From positions 1 to 47,701 of the forward strand of contig PKUG01000202.1 in NCBI GenBank assembly GCA_002869665.1: a stretch of 47,701 nucleotides of DNA, given 5' to 3'. The translations under genes were made by a program, and so were the position numbers. The notes under the pieces were generated by a model. The model was not told the DNA's origin and made no database searches. It was given only the letters and a program-made list of their open reading frames with translations. Of the stretch, positions 578 to 47,305 are shown piece by piece. Origin of the DNA: Desulfuromonas sp. (GTDB lineage: Bacteria > Desulfobacterota > Desulfuromonadia > Desulfuromonadales > Geopsychrobacteraceae). How positions within the stretch are numbered: the stretch's first letter is position 1; the number at the start of each line of letters is the position of its first letter.

Positions 578-1642
578 ATGAAGAAAATTCTGATTATCGA
601 CAAGGACGATGTGACATTGCGCAGCCTGCTTCAGGTTTTGCAGCGTTACAGTGATCTGGAAGTCATCGTCGCCAAGGAACGGACCTACATCAGCCGTGCG
701 CTGCAACAGTTGCAGATCGATCTGGTTGTCTCCGATATCGAGGGGACCGAAGAGCGCTGCATGGATCTGATCGAGACCCTGAATCAGCACTACCCGACCC
801 TTCCCGTCGATGTCCTGAGCGTTGATCTTCCCCCCCATCTCGAATCGCGGCTCGGTTCGTTGCATGTCGCCCGCCGGTTCAAGAAACCAGTCGATGCGAA
901 AAAAACCGCCGACACCATCTACCGTCAGCTCACTAAAGGTGCCGCTGGACAGCTGAAAGGGATCAGTCTGACGTCGGTTCTGCAGTTGATGAATATCGAG
1001 CAGAAACGCTGCGCCCTGCACATTCAGTCACCACTCGGCAGCGGCGATCTCTTCATGCATGACGGTGAACTGATTTCGGCCCGCACTGCAACCCTTACTG
1101 GCGTCGATGCCGCTTACCGGATTCTGAGCTGGGAGCATGTCAGCATCGACCTGGTCGACTCCTATCCAGAAATCAAACAGGACATTTTCGTCCCGCTGAT
1201 GCCTTTGGTTATGGAGGCCCTTCGGCTCAAGGATGAACAGAAGCTTCCCGGTGTCGTCCCCCCGCCCCCGTTGGAGAGCGGTGAAAACACGAAAGCCGCA
1301 CCGATTACTTTGATGGAAAAGCAGATCATCGCCGTTCTTGATCGGTTCCCCGGGGTGGTCGAATACAAACTTTACAACCAGCAAAACCTGCTGCGTTTTT
1401 CCCGTTCGGAGCGGCGCCAGGCGAGTGCCGAAATCCCCCCGGTGGATCTCAAAGAGAAGATCGGGCAGATTTCCGTCGCACTGAAAACCGGCAACCTGAA
1501 GCACATGGTCATCAATGAGAAAAATGTCACCTGTCTCATTTTCCCCTTCAAAGACCTGTGGCTGCATGTCGGTCTGCGTCGCGACCAGGCGGCCAACCAG
1601 TTTCTCCAGCAATTCAAAACCAAAATTGAACTACCCACTTAA
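578..1642 (+). CDS. Response regulator receiver domain + DUF4388 (PATAN-like) protein with a C-terminal roadblock-like region
   Basis: MKKILIIDKDD...VVSDIEG...FKKPVD receiver pattern followed by KGISLTSVLQLMNIEQKRCALHI...GDLFMHDGELISA (DUF4388-like). The ATG at 578 is in frame with the listed ORF start 323 and fits the domain start better. Confidence 0.75.
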   Translation: MKKILIIDKDDVTLRSLLQVLQRYSDLEVIVAKERTYISRALQQLQIDLVVSDIEGTEERCMDLIETLNQHYPTLPVDVLSVDLPPHLESRLGSLHVARRFKKPVDAKKTADTIYRQLTKGAAGQLKGISLTSVLQLMNIEQKRCALHIQSPLGSGDLFMHDGELISARTATLTGVDAAYRILSWEHVSIDLVDSYPEIKQDIFVPLMPLVMEALRLKDEQKLPGVVPPPPLESGENTKAAPITLMEKQIIAVLDRFPGVVEYKLYNQQNLLRFSRSERRQASAEIPPVDLKEKIGQISVALKTGNLKHMVINEKNVTCLIFPFKDLWLHVGLRRDQAANQFLQQFKTKIELPT

Positions 1643-1659
1643 AACAGTAGGAGTTTCAA

Positions 1660-2310
1660 ATGGATCAGGCGATTACAACGTTAAAAGAACTGCCGGGCGT
1701 TTTTGGTGTCTGCATTTACGATGCGGGGAACAATCTGGTCGTCAACCAGATGCCCCCCTTCTTTCCGTCTGCGACGCTGACCGGGCTCGGGGCAATGCTG
1801 ACCGATCTCATTAGCCTGACACGCCAGAAACTGTCGAAGGCCAGCGACATCACCTTGCATTTCGACGAGATCTCACTGATCGCCCGCTTCCTCACAGACA
1901 AAACAGTTCTGGTTATCGGCGAGCCCCACATGAACGAACGAATGGTCAGTTATTCGCTCAACATGCTCGGAAAGCCTCAACAAGTCAGCGTCACTGAAAC
2001 GATCCAACCAGCACCTTCAGCAACGGCGCCTGCAGCTCCGGTCGAGCCTCCAGCGATTTCCAGCGCATCCGACAACAGCATTATCGAACCCTATATCACC
2101 GAGCTCAAAAATGCCCTGACCAAAGCTGTCGGGCCGATGGCTGACATTATCTTCGATGACGCTCTCGATCTGTGGCAGCAAGCGGGCGCGACGGATTTTG
2201 CTGCTTTTCTGACAACCCTGCAGGAAGAAGTCAGTAACGAGGACCAGTTCGACCGTTTCCTCGAAGCAGCGGCAACGGAGATCTCCGAAATCAAGGCACG
2301 GGAGAAATAG
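1660..2310 (+). CDS. Roadblock/LC7-like domain protein with an additional C-terminal helical domain
   Basis: MDQAITTLKELPGVFGVCIYDAGNNLVVNQMPP...VLVIGEPHMN resembles the roadblock fold pattern. The C-terminal part SIIEPYITELKNALTKAVGPMADIIFDDALDLW... is a separate domain. Confidence 0.55.
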   Translation: MDQAITTLKELPGVFGVCIYDAGNNLVVNQMPPFFPSATLTGLGAMLTDLISLTRQKLSKASDITLHFDEISLIARFLTDKTVLVIGEPHMNERMVSYSLNMLGKPQQVSVTETIQPAPSATAPAAPVEPPAISSASDNSIIEPYITELKNALTKAVGPMADIIFDDALDLWQQAGATDFAAFLTTLQEEVSNEDQFDRFLEAAATEISEIKAREK

Positions 2311-2311
2311 C

Positions 2312-2659
2312 ATGGCTAAGGCATCTGAATTTATCAGGCAGCTGACGTCTCTGCCCGGAGCTTCCGGCTACCTGTTGTTCAACAACAACGACGGTCGCAT
2401 CCTGGCCCACAACCTGCCGGACCCTCACTACTATATCCCCTGGGCACAGCTTGTCCTTGGGAACAGTGGAAAACTAACCGAGAACCTGAATAACGAACGC
2501 TTACGCGGCGCATCCCTTGGCCAGGGGGGTGCCGGTACCGTTCACCTGTTCCCGGTTCGTCAATACAGTCTCGTTGTCATTCAATCCGGAAGAATCGTCA
2601 ACGATCATCTTTTTGAACAGGTATCCGTACTGGTTCAAGACACAGTCGAACATGGCTAA
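2312..2659 (+). CDS. Small roadblock/LC7-like protein
   Basis: MAKASEFIRQLTSLPGASGYLLFNNNDGRILAHNLPD...YSLVVIQSGRIVNDHLF; starts 2 nt after the preceding stop codon. Confidence 0.5.
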   Translation: MAKASEFIRQLTSLPGASGYLLFNNNDGRILAHNLPDPHYYIPWAQLVLGNSGKLTENLNNERLRGASLGQGGAGTVHLFPVRQYSLVVIQSGRIVNDHLFEQVSVLVQDTVEHG

Positions 2660-2682
2660 TGAAAAGTTGGAGGAGAGGACAC

Positions 2683-3288
2683 ATGCTGTTGAAAACAATT
2701 AAAAGCAAATTGATCTGTCTGCTGGTGGCCTGCTTTATCCTGTTGCCTGCGTTCACCCAGGCCGAGGAGATTGACAGCGCGCTTGACCAGAACGTTTATC
2801 AATGGGCACAACAATGCCGTGATGAAGTTCTTGACCAGTTCAACCTGCTGCTCTCTTCCGGGCAACTGAGCATGGGGCAGCTGTTCGACACCTTCTATAT
2901 CCCGATTCCGAACACCGATCCGCAGAAATTCAAGACCCAGTACGACAAGGTCACCGATGAAATTCTGCGGCCGATCTTCGACCGCTATCTTGAAAAAGAC
3001 GACCGGCTGGTTTTCTTTCTCGCTGTCGATCGCAACGGTTACCTGCCGACGCACAACACCCGTTATGCCCAGCCGTTGACCGGAGATCCCAAAGTTGATG
3101 TGGTGAAAAACCGGACCAAGCGGATGTTCAACGACCGCACCGGCCTCTCAGCCGCACGCAACACGGAGCCCTATCTGCTGCAGAAATACAGCCGCGACAC
3201 GGGCGAACAGATGGCCGATCTCTCGGTCCCGCTCTACGTCAACAACCGTCACTGGGGCGCGATCAGGGTTGGCTACAAGGCACAATAA
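2683..3288 (+). CDS. Secreted stand-alone sensor domain (Cache-like, of the type seen in chemoreceptors)
   Basis: Start ATG 2683 with GGAGAGG upstream; signal peptide MLLKTIKSKLICLLVACFILLPAFTQAEE; NGYLPTHNTRYAQPLTGD...NRTKRMFNDRTGLSAARN...SRDTGEQMADLSVPLYVNNRHWGAIRVGY. Confidence 0.65.
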   Translation: MLLKTIKSKLICLLVACFILLPAFTQAEEIDSALDQNVYQWAQQCRDEVLDQFNLLLSSGQLSMGQLFDTFYIPIPNTDPQKFKTQYDKVTDEILRPIFDRYLEKDDRLVFFLAVDRNGYLPTHNTRYAQPLTGDPKVDVVKNRTKRMFNDRTGLSAARNTEPYLLQKYSRDTGEQMADLSVPLYVNNRHWGAIRVGYKAQ

Positions 3289-3361
3289 AAGCAGATTGAG
3301 TCGCTAACCGCTCACTACAGTCACCAACAACTGTCTCAATATTTTTCAGATTACTGGAGGA

Positions 3362-4264
3362 ATGATGTTTAAGAGAATCAGCGTAAAAGTTACCGTCTAC
3401 GTCAATATTCTGTTATTGATCGTGCTGCTGATCGGCTCATGGTTCATCATCGGCCAACAGAGCCAGAGTCTCGAGGACCAATTGCTCGAACGGGGCAAGA
3501 TGGAAGCCGTCATGGGGGCCAAGATTACCGGCAGGCTTCTGGAGGAGGCCATCGACAACGGCGTTTTCAGTGTCAACGACGCCTTCGATACCGAATATGA
3601 AGAAATCCCCGGTTTCGACCCGCCGAAATACCACACCAAATACGACTTCTATCTCGACAAGGCGCTGCTGGCTGTCGAGGACGAATTCGTCAAGGACGAC
3701 TCAGTTGTCTTTGCTGTTGCCGTCGACAAGAACGGCTACCTGCCGACGCATAACACCAGATACCAGCAGCCGATCACCGGCAACGTCGAGCGCGACAAGG
3801 TTGGCAACCGGACCAAGCGAATCTTCAACGACCCCGTCGGCCTGGCGGCAGCGCAGAACCTGAAAGAAGGATACCTGCAGGTTTACAACCGTGACACCGG
3901 CGAAACCATGTGGGATATTTCGGCGCCGATCATGGTCAAAGGGAAGCACTGGGGCGGTTTCCGGATCGGCTTCTCACTGGTCAAGACCAACGCCCAGAAA
4001 GCCGAACTGACTCAGTCGATCGCCCTGACGATGATCGCCATCCTGCTGGTTTCGATCCTCTCGGTCATCTTCACTGTCGCCAGTTCGCTGCGACCGCTGG
4101 AAGTCCTGACCAAGGCAGCTTCCGACCTCGCGGACGGCAAGGTCGATAACCCGATCAAAGTCGATTCGGCTGACGAGGTCGGTAAATTGGCGGACGCCCT
4201 TGAACGTCTCAGGATCAGTCTGAAGGCGGCCATGGACAGGATCCGCAAGAGAAGAGCCCAGTAA
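3362..4264 (+). CDS. Membrane sensor: TM - Cache-like domain (homologous to previous gene) - TM - HAMP, with no output domain
   Basis: TM1 VYVNILLLIVLLIGSWFII; NGYLPTHNTRYQQPITGN...NRTKRIFNDPVGLAAAQN...; TM2 ALTMIAILLVSILSVIFTV; HAMP LRPLEVLTKAASDLADGKVDNPIKVDSADEVGKLADALERLRISLK, then stop. Confidence 0.75.
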   Translation: MMFKRISVKVTVYVNILLLIVLLIGSWFIIGQQSQSLEDQLLERGKMEAVMGAKITGRLLEEAIDNGVFSVNDAFDTEYEEIPGFDPPKYHTKYDFYLDKALLAVEDEFVKDDSVVFAVAVDKNGYLPTHNTRYQQPITGNVERDKVGNRTKRIFNDPVGLAAAQNLKEGYLQVYNRDTGETMWDISAPIMVKGKHWGGFRIGFSLVKTNAQKAELTQSIALTMIAILLVSILSVIFTVASSLRPLEVLTKAASDLADGKVDNPIKVDSADEVGKLADALERLRISLKAAMDRIRKRRAQ

Positions 4265-4321
4265 TCCAAACAAAACGGGCGCCTCAGATCGAGGCGCCCG
4301 TAAAATAATGTCATGATCTCG

Positions 4322-4346
4322 GGGTGCCTTTGCGGGCACCCTTTTT
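4322..4346 (+). terminator. Rho-independent terminator
   Basis: gggtgcc-tttgcg-ggcaccc followed by TTTTT. A second hairpin, cgggcgcctc-agatc-gaggcgcccg, lies just upstream at 4276-4300. Confidence 0.75.
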
Positions 4347-4381: not shown

Positions 4382-5683
4382 TCAAACGTCAATCACTTCG
4401 GCGACCAGGTGGTCCCCTTCGACTTTGACAATTCTGACCTGAAGAGATTCCCCTTGCTGGCCAGCGTCCAAGGGCAAGAGCACGTTAAGATAGTTTTCGG
4501 AAAGACCTTTTTTCAAACCGTTATCACCCCCACCCTCAAGTATAATCTCAAGAATCTTACCGACAAAGCCAGCGCCATAAGCGGCGAGTTTGCGCTCACC
4601 GATTTCGCGCAAAAGGGCCGCTCGTTCCTTGATTAAATCTCCGGGGAGCTGGTTCGGTAGCCGTGCGGCGGGTGTTCCGGGACGCCTGCTGTAAGGAAAA
4701 ACATGCAGGTGAGTAAACGGCAGGGATTCGAGATAGTCGCAGGTCGCGGCGAATTGTTCCTCCGTCTCACCGGGAAAACCGGTGATGATGTCGAGGCCGA
4801 TCGCCGCATCCGGTTGACGCTGATGAATTCCGCATAACAGGTCGCGATAGAATGCGGTGGTATAATGCCGGTTCATCCGTTTCAGGATACCGTCATCACC
4901 CGCCTGCAAAGGGATATGATAGTGCGGACAGATCCAGGCGGACGTAGCAATATAGTCGAGCAGCTCGGGGGTCAACTCGTTCGGTTCGATAGACCCGAGC
5001 CGCAAGCGTCCCGAGAACGTCGTCGTCTCGATCTTCTGTAACAGGCTCAGCAAATCACGTTGCGGCACCAGATCCTGACCATACTGGCCGATATGAATAC
5101 CGGTTAAAACGATTTCAGCGTAGCCGCCGGCAGTCAGGTTCTCTATCTGATGAAGAATCTCCCCTTCGGCAACCGAACGACTCCGTCCGCGTGCATAGGG
5201 AATAATGCAGTAGGCGCAGAATGCATCGCAGCCGTTCTGGATCTGGACAAATGCCCGGCTGCGTTGGGCAAAGCTTGTCAATGGCAGGGTTTCCGCTTTT
5301 TCGATCTTGCGGATATCGGAGACGATAATTTCTCCGCCGTCACGCTTAGCGGCCAGATAGGTCAGCAGCTCCTTTTTCTCTTCATTGCCGATGACCAGCG
5401 AAACACCAGGGAGTTGATTGAGACTCTGGGGATCGATCTGGGCGTAGCATCCGGTGACAACAATCCGGCATTCGGGATTGATCCGCCGGGCACGCCGAAT
5501 CAGGTTACGCGACTGGGAATCGGTCGCCGCAGTAACAGTACAGGTATTGACGATCACCAGGTCGGCACCAGTCGCAAAATCGACCTGTTGGCAACCCGAG
5601 TTGGCCAGTCCTTCCGCCATGGCAACCGACTCGAACTGGTTGGTCTTACACCCCAGGGTGACAATGGAAAAAGTGCCGCTCAC
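4382..5683 (-). CDS. mtaB: tRNA (N6-threonylcarbamoyladenosine-37-C2)-methylthiotransferase MtaB
   Basis: MSGTFSIVTLGCKTNQFESVAMAEGL...FVQIQNGCDAFCAYCIIPYARGRSRS; radical SAM CxxxCxxC; GTG start overlaps the mnmA stop (GTGA). Confidence 0.9.
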   Translation of the reverse strand: MSGTFSIVTLGCKTNQFESVAMAEGLANSGCQQVDFATGADLVIVNTCTVTAATDSQSRNLIRRARRINPECRIVVTGCYAQIDPQSLNQLPGVSLVIGNEEKKELLTYLAAKRDGGEIIVSDIRKIEKAETLPLTSFAQRSRAFVQIQNGCDAFCAYCIIPYARGRSRSVAEGEILHQIENLTAGGYAEIVLTGIHIGQYGQDLVPQRDLLSLLQKIETTTFSGRLRLGSIEPNELTPELLDYIATSAWICPHYHIPLQAGDDGILKRMNRHYTTAFYRDLLCGIHQRQPDAAIGLDIITGFPGETEEQFAATCDYLESLPFTHLHVFPYSRRPGTPAARLPNQLPGDLIKERAALLREIGERKLAAYGAGFVGKILEIILEGGGDNGLKKGLSENYLNVLLPLDAGQQGESLQVRIVKVEGDHLVAEVIDV

Positions 5684-44725: not shown

Positions 44726-47248
44726 TCACACCCGGTCACCCGTGGCACGCCGCAAGGGCAGAGTAAAGCGAATCAGGGTGCCGCTGCCGGGCTTGCTGTC
44801 GATCAGGATTTCACCACCGTGATCAGTCACGATATTGTAACTGATCGCCAGCCCGAGGCCGGTCCCCTGCCCCTTACTGGTAAAGAAGGGCTCAAACACC
44901 AGCTGCAATTTGTCCGCCGGGATCCCGACACCAGTATCGCCGACGAGAATATGGATGAAATCCTCAGCGGTCTCGACCCGGACGGTCAGAGTGCCCCCAT
45001 CAGGCATCGCCTCCAGGGCATTGTTCAGCAGATTGAGCATAACCTGCTTGATCCGGTCGGCGTCCATCATGATTTCTGGCAGATCGGACGGAACCTCCTC
45101 AATCAGCTCAACACGCTGGCGCTGGCACTGCTTGCGCAACAGGAACAGCGAATCCTGAATCACCTTGTCGATACAACCGTGAACAAGCTGCGGTTCCGGC
45201 ATTGAAGCGAAGTGGAGCATTTCATTCACCAGCGATTCAAGCCGTTCGATCTCCCCCAACGCCCGGCGGATCAATTGCTGATCCACTTCCTGCCCCAACA
45301 GGCGGTCGTGCAATTCGTCGAGCAGAAGGCTGACCCCGGTCAACGGATTACGCACCTCATGAGCGATACCTGCTGACATTCGGCCAAGGGACGCCAGACG
45401 ATCCATGCGCGCCATCTGCTGGCGCATATTGACCCGTTCGGTCAGGTCCTCGATCGTCAGCAGGCACCCGGCCTGCCGCCGGAAACTCATCGGAAAAAGC
45501 GCCATCCGGTAGGTCAGGTTCCGCCCGCCACGTTCTAACGGGACATACATCCGATAGGTGTCGTGACGCCTGACGATATCACCACAGAACCAGGATTCCA
45601 GCACGTCCGTGAGTTCTGGCCAGTCGACAAGCAGTTCCTGCCAGGAGCAGTTTTTCACCGGTCGGTTGAGATTGAGAATCCGGCAGGCCGGGCCGTTGAC
45701 CGAGGTGACGTTACGTTCATCATCGAATGTCAGAATTCCCGTTTCAATATTTTCGAAGACCGTATCCTTGAAGTTACGTTCGCGGATAATCTCTTTACGC
45801 GACAGACGCAGGGCTTGCAATGTCTGAAGCAGGCGCTGACGCCGGTTATTGAGTTCTTTGACCATCTGGTTAAAGGAATCGGCCAGGGCCCCAACTTCGT
45901 CGCTGGTTTCTACTTTGACGAGTGGGGAGAGGTTCCCCTGGATCATCCGCAGCGTTCCCTCTCTCAGGGAAAGGAGCGGACGAACGATGCTGTTGGACAG
46001 CATATAGGCCGCAGCGATCACGAGCATGATCGTTAACGAGATGACCAGCCAGGATTGCGCCAGATAATGACTGATCTCCCGCTGGATCAACTGCGCCGTA
46101 GTCAGGGCCGGTTGATGAAACTGTTCGATCTCGGCACCGATAGTGATCCCGCCAAAAATATTGAACCCCTTATAGGGTCCACTGGCGTAATGGATCGGAG
46201 CGTACGCCATGATCTTGCTCGAACCACCGATATTGGTCGTGTCGACGACACCCGACAAACGCTGGCGGACAGCGCGCGCCGCCAGTGGGTAATTGGGATG
46301 GATAAACTCAGCATCCAGCAAATTGAAGGGTATCCGACCGGCATTGACATCTTCGGCAGAGGTGTCCCTGGTATAGGCCGGGACCAAATTGCCGTCAGCA
46401 TCGTAGCCGCGGATATCCCAGAACTTCGGATGGGCAATCGTCCACCCTTCGTCATCAAACATGAAGGCATAATTGGCACTGGCGTATGACGGAAAAACGA
46501 CCGGCTGGTCATCGATCGTCGATATGTGCTGGGTAAACTCCACCAGGTGCCGATGGTCGAGGGAAATGACGACTATCCCCTGAAAAGCTCCCTCGCGGTA
46601 AAGGGGTGTAGAGAAACGGATCACTCCCCGGTATGGCGTCCCCAGAACCGCTTCCGGCGGGGTCTCCACATCCCTGAACTGATCCGAACGGCTGACATAC
46701 CAACCGCTCAACCGCGTCACCCAGATATCTCCCGTTTCAAGCCGGGCAGTCTCATCGAAATAAGTTTCAGTCTTGTATGTTGTCTGGGCTGGATCAGCAA
46801 CCATACGAAGATCCGCAGAGACCTCGCCATCAACAATTCGCAGACGTTCCATGCCGTCGGCATCGATAAAGGCAAGTTCGCTGTAAAGAAGCGCCTGTTC
46901 CCTGGTTTCCAAGGGGGCACCGTTGGTCCCGGACAGATACCAGATTTCACGCCGGTGATTATGGCTGAATTCACGATAAGCCGTAGCCGTGCGCGGAACC
47001 AGGGTCAGATCGAGCAGATCACCCTCGACCTCATTCAGAAACGCGGAAACCTGCTCGGCAACCATCCGCGCACGCTGTTCAAGCGCCTTTGCCGCCTGGG
47101 CGTCCAGAGCTTCTGTCGTCCGCTGGCGCAGGATTTCCTCGACCAGGCTCAGGCTGTGCTGTGAATTGAACAGCAGAATACCGAGCGGCACCAGCGACAG
47201 GAGCAGAAAGGCCCCGAGGACCTTTTTATGCAGGTTCACGCGAAACAT
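44726..47248 (-). CDS. Sensor histidine kinase: dCache - HAMP - PAS - HisKA - HATPase
   Basis: [51 protein letters not shown] (H-box); [34 protein letters not shown]. Confidence 0.92.
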
Positions 47249-47305
47249 ACCGGGAGTATAGAGGAAAAGCGGAGGAAGGAAAAGCATTGCGCATGCTGAA
47301 GGAGA

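Follow-up and report, generated by a model that had tools for sequence, protein, structure and literature searches.

How a receptor that ends directly after its HAMP domain could pass on a signal is the question raised by a five-gene cassette in the window, which is the whole stretch of 47,701 nucleotides of Desulfuromonas sp. that was analysed. To our knowledge, AF1503, the prototype HAMP structure, lacks a recognisable effector. When hundreds of genomes are compared, the picture suggests roadblock proteins as the missing output of the HAMP receptor, in a type of bacterial relay that may be widespread and has hardly been described.

Organisation of the cassette

The cassette consists of five open reading frames (g1 to g5) on the + strand within positions 578 to 4264. 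The features of the locus are listed below.

578 to 1642, + strand: g1, diverged receiver, DUF4388/PATAN domain (aa 123-222) and C-terminal roadblock-like domain (about aa 250-354), assigned from Pfam, alignment and hhalign
1660 to 2310, + strand: g2, roadblock domain (aa 1-104) and STAC-like helical domain (about aa 143-215) with a GPMA motif, assigned from AlphaFold, Foldseek and a profile
2312 to 2659, + strand: g3, stand-alone roadblock-like protein, assigned from an orthologue over the Robl_LC7 cut-off and the g3 profile
2659 to 3288, + strand: g4, soluble exported copy of the g5 sensor domain with a signal peptide, assigned from sequence and alignment
3362 to 4264, + strand: g5, TM segment, Cache/PAS-like sensor, TM segment and HAMP, ending just after HAMP, assigned from Pfam and alignment
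4079 to 4225, + strand: HAMP domain of g5 (aa 240-288), assigned from Pfam, with the AF1503 HAMP as best PDB match
4202 to 4264, + strand: conserved HAMP-terminal tail ERLRISLKAAMDRIRKRRAQ followed by the stop codon, a proposed docking helix, based on invariant residues and the converse pattern search
4321 to 4342, + strand: rho-independent terminator of the cassette (hairpin)
4275 to 4301, - strand: hairpin that terminates the converging gene (4382-5683)

The genes are separated by 17 nt (g1/g2), 1 nt (g2/g3) and 73 nt (g4/g5), and g3 and g4 either overlap or lie 23 nt apart depending on the start chosen for g4. The likelier start of g4 is the ATG at 2683 with the putative ribosome-binding site GGAGGAGAGG, and g5 probably starts at 3365 rather than 3362. 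Upstream of g1, the window contains no more than the end of an MFS-like frame. The initial annotation described five same-strand genes ending in a strong terminator. The five genes are as described, but the stronger of the two hairpins (4275-4301) carries its T-run on the minus strand and belongs to the converging gene; the cassette's own terminator is the hairpin at 4321-4342.

The receptor and its soluble sensor copy

The g5 product is a protein of 300 aa in which HAMP (Pfam E value of 9.3e-10) is the sole cytosolic domain, as indicated by Pfam and by the conserved end of the protein. The absence of an output domain after HAMP was thus read correctly from the sequence, and no MCP signalling domain was identified in g5 by Pfam. 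The sensors of g4 and g5 are homologous with about 51% identity, which agrees with the earlier reading of one sensor domain in a soluble exported form and a membrane-bound form. The Pfam match of g5 to PocR (E value of 0.022) is below the cut-off and was not used. The NCBIfam matches between g5 and sensor kinases (for example WalK) cover mainly the TM-HAMP part and are far below the cut-offs, and they therefore carry no information on a kinase.

The possibility that g5 is a frameshifted MCP or kinase had been named as grounds for rejecting the initial annotation. The short HAMP-ending g5 is conserved in 19 of the 60 genomes searched with 55-78% identity, and it is therefore not such a product. 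The longer MCPs with the same sensor and HAMP in relatives are encoded as separate genes. Those MCPs would also fit a remnant or decoy receptor that has lost its output and does no more than titrate away ligand or other receptors. However, the HAMP domain and tail of g5 are strongly conserved with fixed length in many genera, the neighbourhood is conserved, and the same tail is found on unrelated sensors. A decoy role is therefore considered very improbable.

Co-occurrence of HAMP-terminated receptors and g2

The set of g1 to g5 is also found in relatives (loci L037, L041-L046, and L054-L056) and in another, distant family of the phylum (L207 and L208). The co-occurrence of the genes hence extends beyond a single family and across the phylum, and the conservation of neighbourhood that the initial annotation called for is borne out. 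The cassette-bearing genomes include those of Desulfuromonas and Desulfuromusa, among others.

Of the 19 genomes with the short g5, 18 also have g2, and in some of these the two are encoded at separate loci. Among 41 genomes compared for the HAMP-terminated receptor and g2, 20 have both, 20 have neither, and there is one exception. Two draft genomes have a receptor and no g2: G033, which encodes g5, and G016, which encodes a dCache-type HAMP-terminated receptor and in which no g2 was detected. The search of 297 genomes with the tail pattern ERLRxSL returned seven matches, all seven beside a g2 gene, and the reversed control returned none. Three matches to MDR[FL]ADSL (L139, L163, and L164) are long MCP-like proteins with an internal HAMP, and another (L153) is not a HAMP; these were left out of the count.

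At least five further sensor types are found on HAMP-terminated receptors, which often adjoin g2 homologs. The sensors found on receptors with the HAMP tail are the g5 Cache, Tll0287 with CxxCH, dCache_1, dCache_3, Cache_3-Cache_2, and PilJ. The second HAMP-terminated receptor of this genome has a c-heme Tll0287 sensor and is encoded on contig C24. The g2 operons at six of 20 distant loci, and also those at L106-L118, have no HAMP-terminated receptor nearby, and two g2 operons have a membrane-bound kinase in its place. The type A loci carry histidine kinase, PATAN and roadblock genes, and the loci that have only g4 and g5 adjoin priA-mltA-nudix.

Roadblock and STAC-like domains of g2 and g3

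No Pfam match was obtained for g2, g3, and g4 of the window. The AlphaFold model of g2 has a roadblock fold, and its Foldseek matches are roadblock proteins including MglB. In g2, the roadblock domain is followed by a fused helical domain that resembles the STAC protein AF1502. In the profile search with the C-terminal domain of g2, AF1502 ranks first among PDB chains with an E value of 0.035-0.13, which is below significance alone. This domain is helical with an invariant GP, reads VGPMA in the window compared to LGPx(x)A in the four-helix STAC proteins, and is fused to the roadblock rather than stand-alone. The match of a g2 ortholog to DUF2173 (E value of 0.0022) is below the Pfam cut-off and was not used. 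The tree of g2 groups the sequences by the type of linked receptor; only its main split was used because the tree has long branches (L048, L129, and L209 among them).

The g3 ortholog at L071:6514-6897 reaches the cut-off of Robl_LC7 (PF03259), and g3 of the window matches the g3 profile, which includes the window's own g3. The two proteins initially described as roadblock-like therefore do have roadblock domains, but g2 is also STAC-like and a third roadblock domain ends g1.

These roadblock proteins may instead regulate an MglA-like GTPase encoded elsewhere, with the receptor altering their activity and thereby polarity or pilus activity. The g2 fold is close to MglB, and this genome has an MglB-MglA gene pair (L226, with MglA on contig C151), so the earlier statement that no GTPase is encoded here holds for the cassettes and not for the genome. 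However, the cassettes examined contain no recognisable Ras-like GTPase, MglA has its own MglB next to it, and the sequences of g2 and g3 are distant from that of MglB, with no Robl_LC7 match in the window. The GTPase route is considered improbable.

The g1 protein and the histidine kinase module

The DUF4388/PATAN domain of g1 is above the Pfam cut-off (1.2e-17), and its receiver is just under the cut-off (28.6 compared to 30.2 bits). DUF4388 is reportedly mentioned in a study of Chloroflexi nitrite reductase. In the D-K-D pocket of the window's g1 receiver, the phospho-acceptor Asp and the conserved Lys are retained and the second acidic residue is replaced by Lys; judged from these residues, the local receiver appears degenerate. 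The C-terminal domains of the g1 family align with a roadblock family at 98.6% (E value of 1e-15) by hhalign. The label of receiver-DUF4388 protein was right for both domains, but it missed the divergence of the receiver and the roadblock domain at the end.

A soluble histidine kinase precedes g1 in relatives. The kinase is adjacent in all 32 loci with an intact receiver and absent in 11 of the 12 loci without one. It belongs to the usual cassette and is missing in the window, where none is found upstream of g1. In this genome, a histidine kinase is encoded on another contig (C111) with its own g1 and g3 paralogs.

A split two-component system might instead explain the cassette. The receptor would control the soluble kinase via the STAC-like and roadblock adaptors, which would only couple the two as CheW couples MCPs to CheA, and phosphorylated g1 would be the main output. 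This is consistent with the strict association of kinase and intact receiver, with the overlap of 4 nt between the kinase gene and g1 in several relatives, and with CbrA, where STAC lies between transporter and kinase domains (PMC13022988). However, 11 loci keep the core without the kinase and without an intact receiver, the window, L037, L207, and L208 among them. Phosphorylation is therefore not the sole output, and we regard the split two-component system as unlikely.

Proposed relay

We favour, with somewhat better than even confidence, a split relay that would run from the HAMP tail to the roadblock-STAC adaptor and on to the PATAN-roadblock output, with the kinase and receiver optional. 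From the observed gene conservation, domains, motif, and co-occurrence, we infer its contacts, signal direction, and target as follows. The g5 receptor would sense a periplasmic ligand via its Cache-like domain, and the likely role of the soluble g4 is to share or buffer that ligand or to pair with the sensor of g5. The dimeric HAMP would be the entire cytoplasmic part of g5, with the terminal helix ERLRxSLKxAM as its docking surface. The STAC-like domain of g2 would read this tail, the g2 roadblock would pair with those of g3 and the C-terminal part of g1, and the receptor state would reach the PATAN output of g1. Phosphorylation may be an additional, optional input or output in most relatives, which have a soluble PAS histidine kinase and an intact g1 receiver. 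As for the final target, a first guess is the type IV pilus machinery, because other PATAN regulators act there.

The best PDB matches of the g5 HAMP and of the g2 C-terminus are AF1503 and AF1502, a known genomic pair, and this was counted in favour of the relay. Counted against it were the AF1502 similarity below significance together with the VGPMA reading, the lack of linked transport genes, the g2 operons with no HAMP-terminated receptor nearby, and the genomes G016 and G033. The initial annotation had proposed that the output-less receptor signals through the co-encoded roadblock and receiver-DUF4388 proteins. This proposal survives in outline, given the conserved set and a tail motif that matches only g2-linked receptors, with corrections concerning g2, g1, and the kinase.

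The bacterial cassette offers candidates for the partner (roadblock-STAC), the contact (the ERLRxSLKxAM tail), and the output (PATAN). If the relay is true, unannotated g2, g3, and DUF4388 proteins and Cache-HAMP "fragments" would share one role and could be found by a simple motif, and roadblock proteins would act in direct coupling to receptors as well as in the regulation of GTPases.

Comparison with known systems

The initial annotation knew of no described system with this composition and overlooked AF1503-AF1502 of Archaeoglobus fulgidus, a HAMP-only receptor and a STAC protein that form a genomic pair, as described in the available part of PMC4834066. Both systems have HAMP as the sole cytosolic part, a similar tail (ERLRRSLKVAMESLE in AF1503), and, encoded alongside, a helical protein that has a GPxA motif. 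However, AF1503-AF1502 is archaeal, AF1502 is a stand-alone STAC protein of 68 aa, and transport genes are linked, while roadblock, PATAN or kinase are not described in that part of the source. Such transport-gene linkage was not seen in the cassettes here, nor was a recurring transporter among the neighbours inspected by eye. The Tll0287-like (DUF3365, sCache_heme) HAMP protein of Pseudomonas azotoformans is likewise a bacterial sensor-TM-HAMP protein with apparently no output and resembles the receptor on contig C24, but in contrast to g5 its sensor is c-heme, and its partner genes are not described in the available part of PMC12889525.

The SLC5-STAC kinases CbrA and CrbS similarly have STAC flanked by a membrane part on one side and two-component parts on the other. 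They differ in having a transporter instead of a Cache-HAMP receptor, in being single chains, and in having no roadblock or PATAN. The MglB/MglC regulators of MglA in Myxococcus and Thermus share the roadblock fold of g2, whereas the cassette has no GTPase and its roadblocks are fused to STAC-like or PATAN domains.

The PATAN regulators PixG, PixE, and LsiR of Synechocystis combine a receiver with PATAN (DUF4388), as g1 does, but here the order is REC-PATAN-roadblock and the gene is linked to a HAMP-terminated receptor. In PatA-type proteins, PATAN precedes REC.

No relevant literature was found on HAMP with roadblock. The esnABCD electrode-sensing network of Geobacter was set aside as an MCP-CheW-CheA-diguanylate cyclase set. 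The MCP-CheW-CheA system shares the sensor and HAMP, which are found in MCPs, and the logic of receptor, adaptor, and soluble kinase, but the cassette has no MCP signalling hairpin, CheW or CheA. We tentatively suggest, with slightly less than even confidence, that HAMP-terminated receptors with interchangeable sensors, roadblock-STAC adaptors, and PATAN-roadblock outputs constitute a class of prokaryotic transmembrane signalling in its own right, alongside MCP-CheW-CheA and sensor kinases, that would include the archaeal AF1503 type and have one HAMP-tail motif as its marker.

Cassette genes and terminators

The initial annotation had proposed five same-strand genes at 578-4264 that end in a strong terminator. 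The five genes (g1 to g5) were borne out by reading of the window sequence. Two hairpins were identified from the same sequence; the smaller ends the cassette, but the larger is not on the cassette strand.

Features of the cassette and its end
From ATG 578, plus strand: g1, 354 aa; receiver (REC) just under the Pfam cut-off, DUF4388 (PATAN) well over the cut-off
Plus strand: g5, 300 aa; HAMP at aa 240-288 (Pfam)
4321-4342, plus strand: cassette-ending hairpin
4275-4301, T-run on the minus strand: larger hairpin

The genes g2, g3, and g4 have no Pfam match and nothing meaningful in NCBIfam. The exported soluble protein g4 and the membrane receptor g5 do have a common sensor domain (51% identity). 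The large histidine kinase encoded at 44726-47287 (minus strand), which includes a HAMP-like stretch, is unrelated to the cassette.

Receptor without an output domain

The g5 protein is a genuine output-less receptor. Its short form was identified in 19 of 60 genomes (the genome of the window plus 59 relatives), where full-length copies have 296-320 aa and 55-78% identity to g5 of the window, and g4 is directly upstream of nearly all of them. The C-terminal motif LERLR-x-SLK-x-AM is almost invariant among the copies, with 9-19 residues from its SL to the protein end. A frameshifted MCP or kinase had been named as the alternative; MCPs with this sensor-HAMP combination are encoded by longer genes of their own. 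The modelled g5 sensor is similar to Cache domains, including the one in WalK, and the soluble g4 offers a handle on its ligand.

Some MCPs of relatives carry the g5-type sensor twice, N-terminal in the periplasm and C-terminal after the MCP domain (L025, L032, L035, L059:8884-11211, and L060:6010-8301). The second copy should be cytoplasmic, and ligand sensing may occur on both membrane sides. A lone g4 is found at L040:5968-6561 with no g5 or other cassette genes nearby.

Gene neighbourhood

The cassette is larger than the five genes first noticed. The expected conservation was found, as g1-g5 recur in relatives (L041-L046 and L054-L056), where a soluble PAS-HisKA-HATPase kinase (HK) precedes them; in several relatives the kinase gene and g1 share a few nucleotides. 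HK-g1-g2-g3 occurs without g4-g5 at L106-L118 and L131-L133. Five genomes (G015, G019, G029, G032, and G035) have g4-g5 apart from HK-g1-g2-g3, and separate g4-g5 pairs adjoin priA-mltA-nudix genes several times. Another contig of the window's genome (C111, L071:6514-9163) encodes HK, an intact REC-PATAN-roadblock g1 paralogue, and a g3 paralogue together, with no g2 gene. It looks as though this genome had divided the canonical operon over two loci. In the wider phylum, g1-g5 are complete except for REC in G118 and G321 (L207 and L208).

The kinase and the receiver are an optional unit. The receiver is intact in 32 of 44 PATAN proteins beside g2, all 32 with a kinase nearby, and 11 of the 12 without an intact receiver have no kinase nearby. 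The window and L037 are both in the latter set; in these two, D-K-D replaces the D-D-E pocket and the phospho-acceptor Asp and conserved Lys are kept. Since kinase and receiver come and go together, the persistent part is the receptor, the roadblock-STAC protein, and the PATAN-roadblock protein.

Association of HAMP-terminated receptors with g2

The association of HAMP-terminated receptors with g2 is general. Homologs of g2 adjoin such receptors at 14 of 20 loci examined in the wider phylum, with sensors of g5, Tll0287, dCache_1, dCache_3, Cache_3-Cache_2, and PilJ types. A second cassette of the window's genome (contig C24, L072:5036-7788) encodes a receptor that ends in HAMP and has a Tll0287-like CxxCH (c-heme) sensor, together with an OmpA-TPR protein, a Robl_LC7 protein, and a g2 paralogue, and this type recurs in relatives (L120-L128, L130, and L135). 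A heme-Cache HAMP protein of this receptor kind is described as NO-binding in a recent report (PMC12889525). The g2 tree separates a mostly Tll0287-linked side from a g5/dCache-linked side (split support 98/91). One set encodes the two parts of g2, roadblock and STAC-like, as different proteins:

L219:2449-5908: domain-shuffled set of REC-PATAN-roadblock, Cache-HAMP receptor, PATAN-STAC fusion, and stand-alone roadblock

At two loci of one distant family (L200:8626-11001 and L202:2879-5152), the kinase beside g1-g2 is itself predicted to have transmembrane helices, and the vicinity lacks a HAMP-terminated receptor.

Among 41 genomes, 20 have both receptor and g2, 20 have neither, and one is an exception (Fisher 8e-11, treating related genomes as independent, with some receptors found by the motif itself and absence calls limited by draft assemblies). 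Written as a DNA pattern (E[IV]GxLx4[DE]R-x-RxSL), the HAMP tail matched seven times in 297 genomes of the phylum; its reversed control matched nowhere. Each of the seven is a receptor already known beside g2 (L207, L208, L210, L214, L072, L126, and the window). A looser earlier pattern gave 29 matches in the 41 genomes, of which 25 are HAMP-terminated; of the other four, three are long proteins in which HAMP is internal, and one is not HAMP. The dCache class among the 25 (L165-L171) has no g2 within several kilobases, and its genomes carry g2 except G016.

Domains and proposed mechanism

The AlphaFold model of g2 has a high-confidence alpha-beta-beta-alpha-beta-beta-beta-alpha domain, assigned by Foldseek to the roadblock fold with MglB among the matches, and, apart from it, a domain of five helices (aa 143-215) whose motif (L/I/V)GP(M/I/V)A contains an invariant Gly-Pro. 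The profile of this second domain, searched against 177,635 PDB sequences, ranks AF1502 (5A1Q) best (E 0.035), and the full-length profile aligns AF1502 to the same part. The best PDB match to g5 is the HAMP of AF1503. The STAC protein AF1502 and the HAMP-only receptor AF1503 are encoded by translationally coupled genes (PMC4834066). Each match is weak or generic alone; the case for STAC is that two cassette genes match both members of one known genomic pair. In context the assignment is strong, but the sequence match taken by itself falls short of significance. The AF1503-type archaeal family is linked to transport genes, and no such linkage was seen around the cassettes. One orthologue of g3 scores high enough for the Robl_LC7 cut-off, and g1 and related proteins have a C-terminal domain that matches a roadblock family (98.6% probability).

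Ligand binding would alter the HAMP state of g5, and the STAC-like domain of g2 would recognise the g5 tail. Through pairing of the roadblock domains of g2, g3, and g1, the state would pass on to PATAN, a step that HK-REC, where present, might tune or replace. The signal may instead run through MglA, since the window's genome (contig C151, L226:520-1694) encodes an MglA-type GTPase, albeit with its own MglB-like roadblock protein directly upstream (both assigned by eye from sequence and a Robl_LC7 match). For the PATAN route, the first candidate target is type IV pili, on which the PATAN regulators of Synechocystis are thought to act, with PixE acting on the motor PilB1 (reviewed in PMC7690835).
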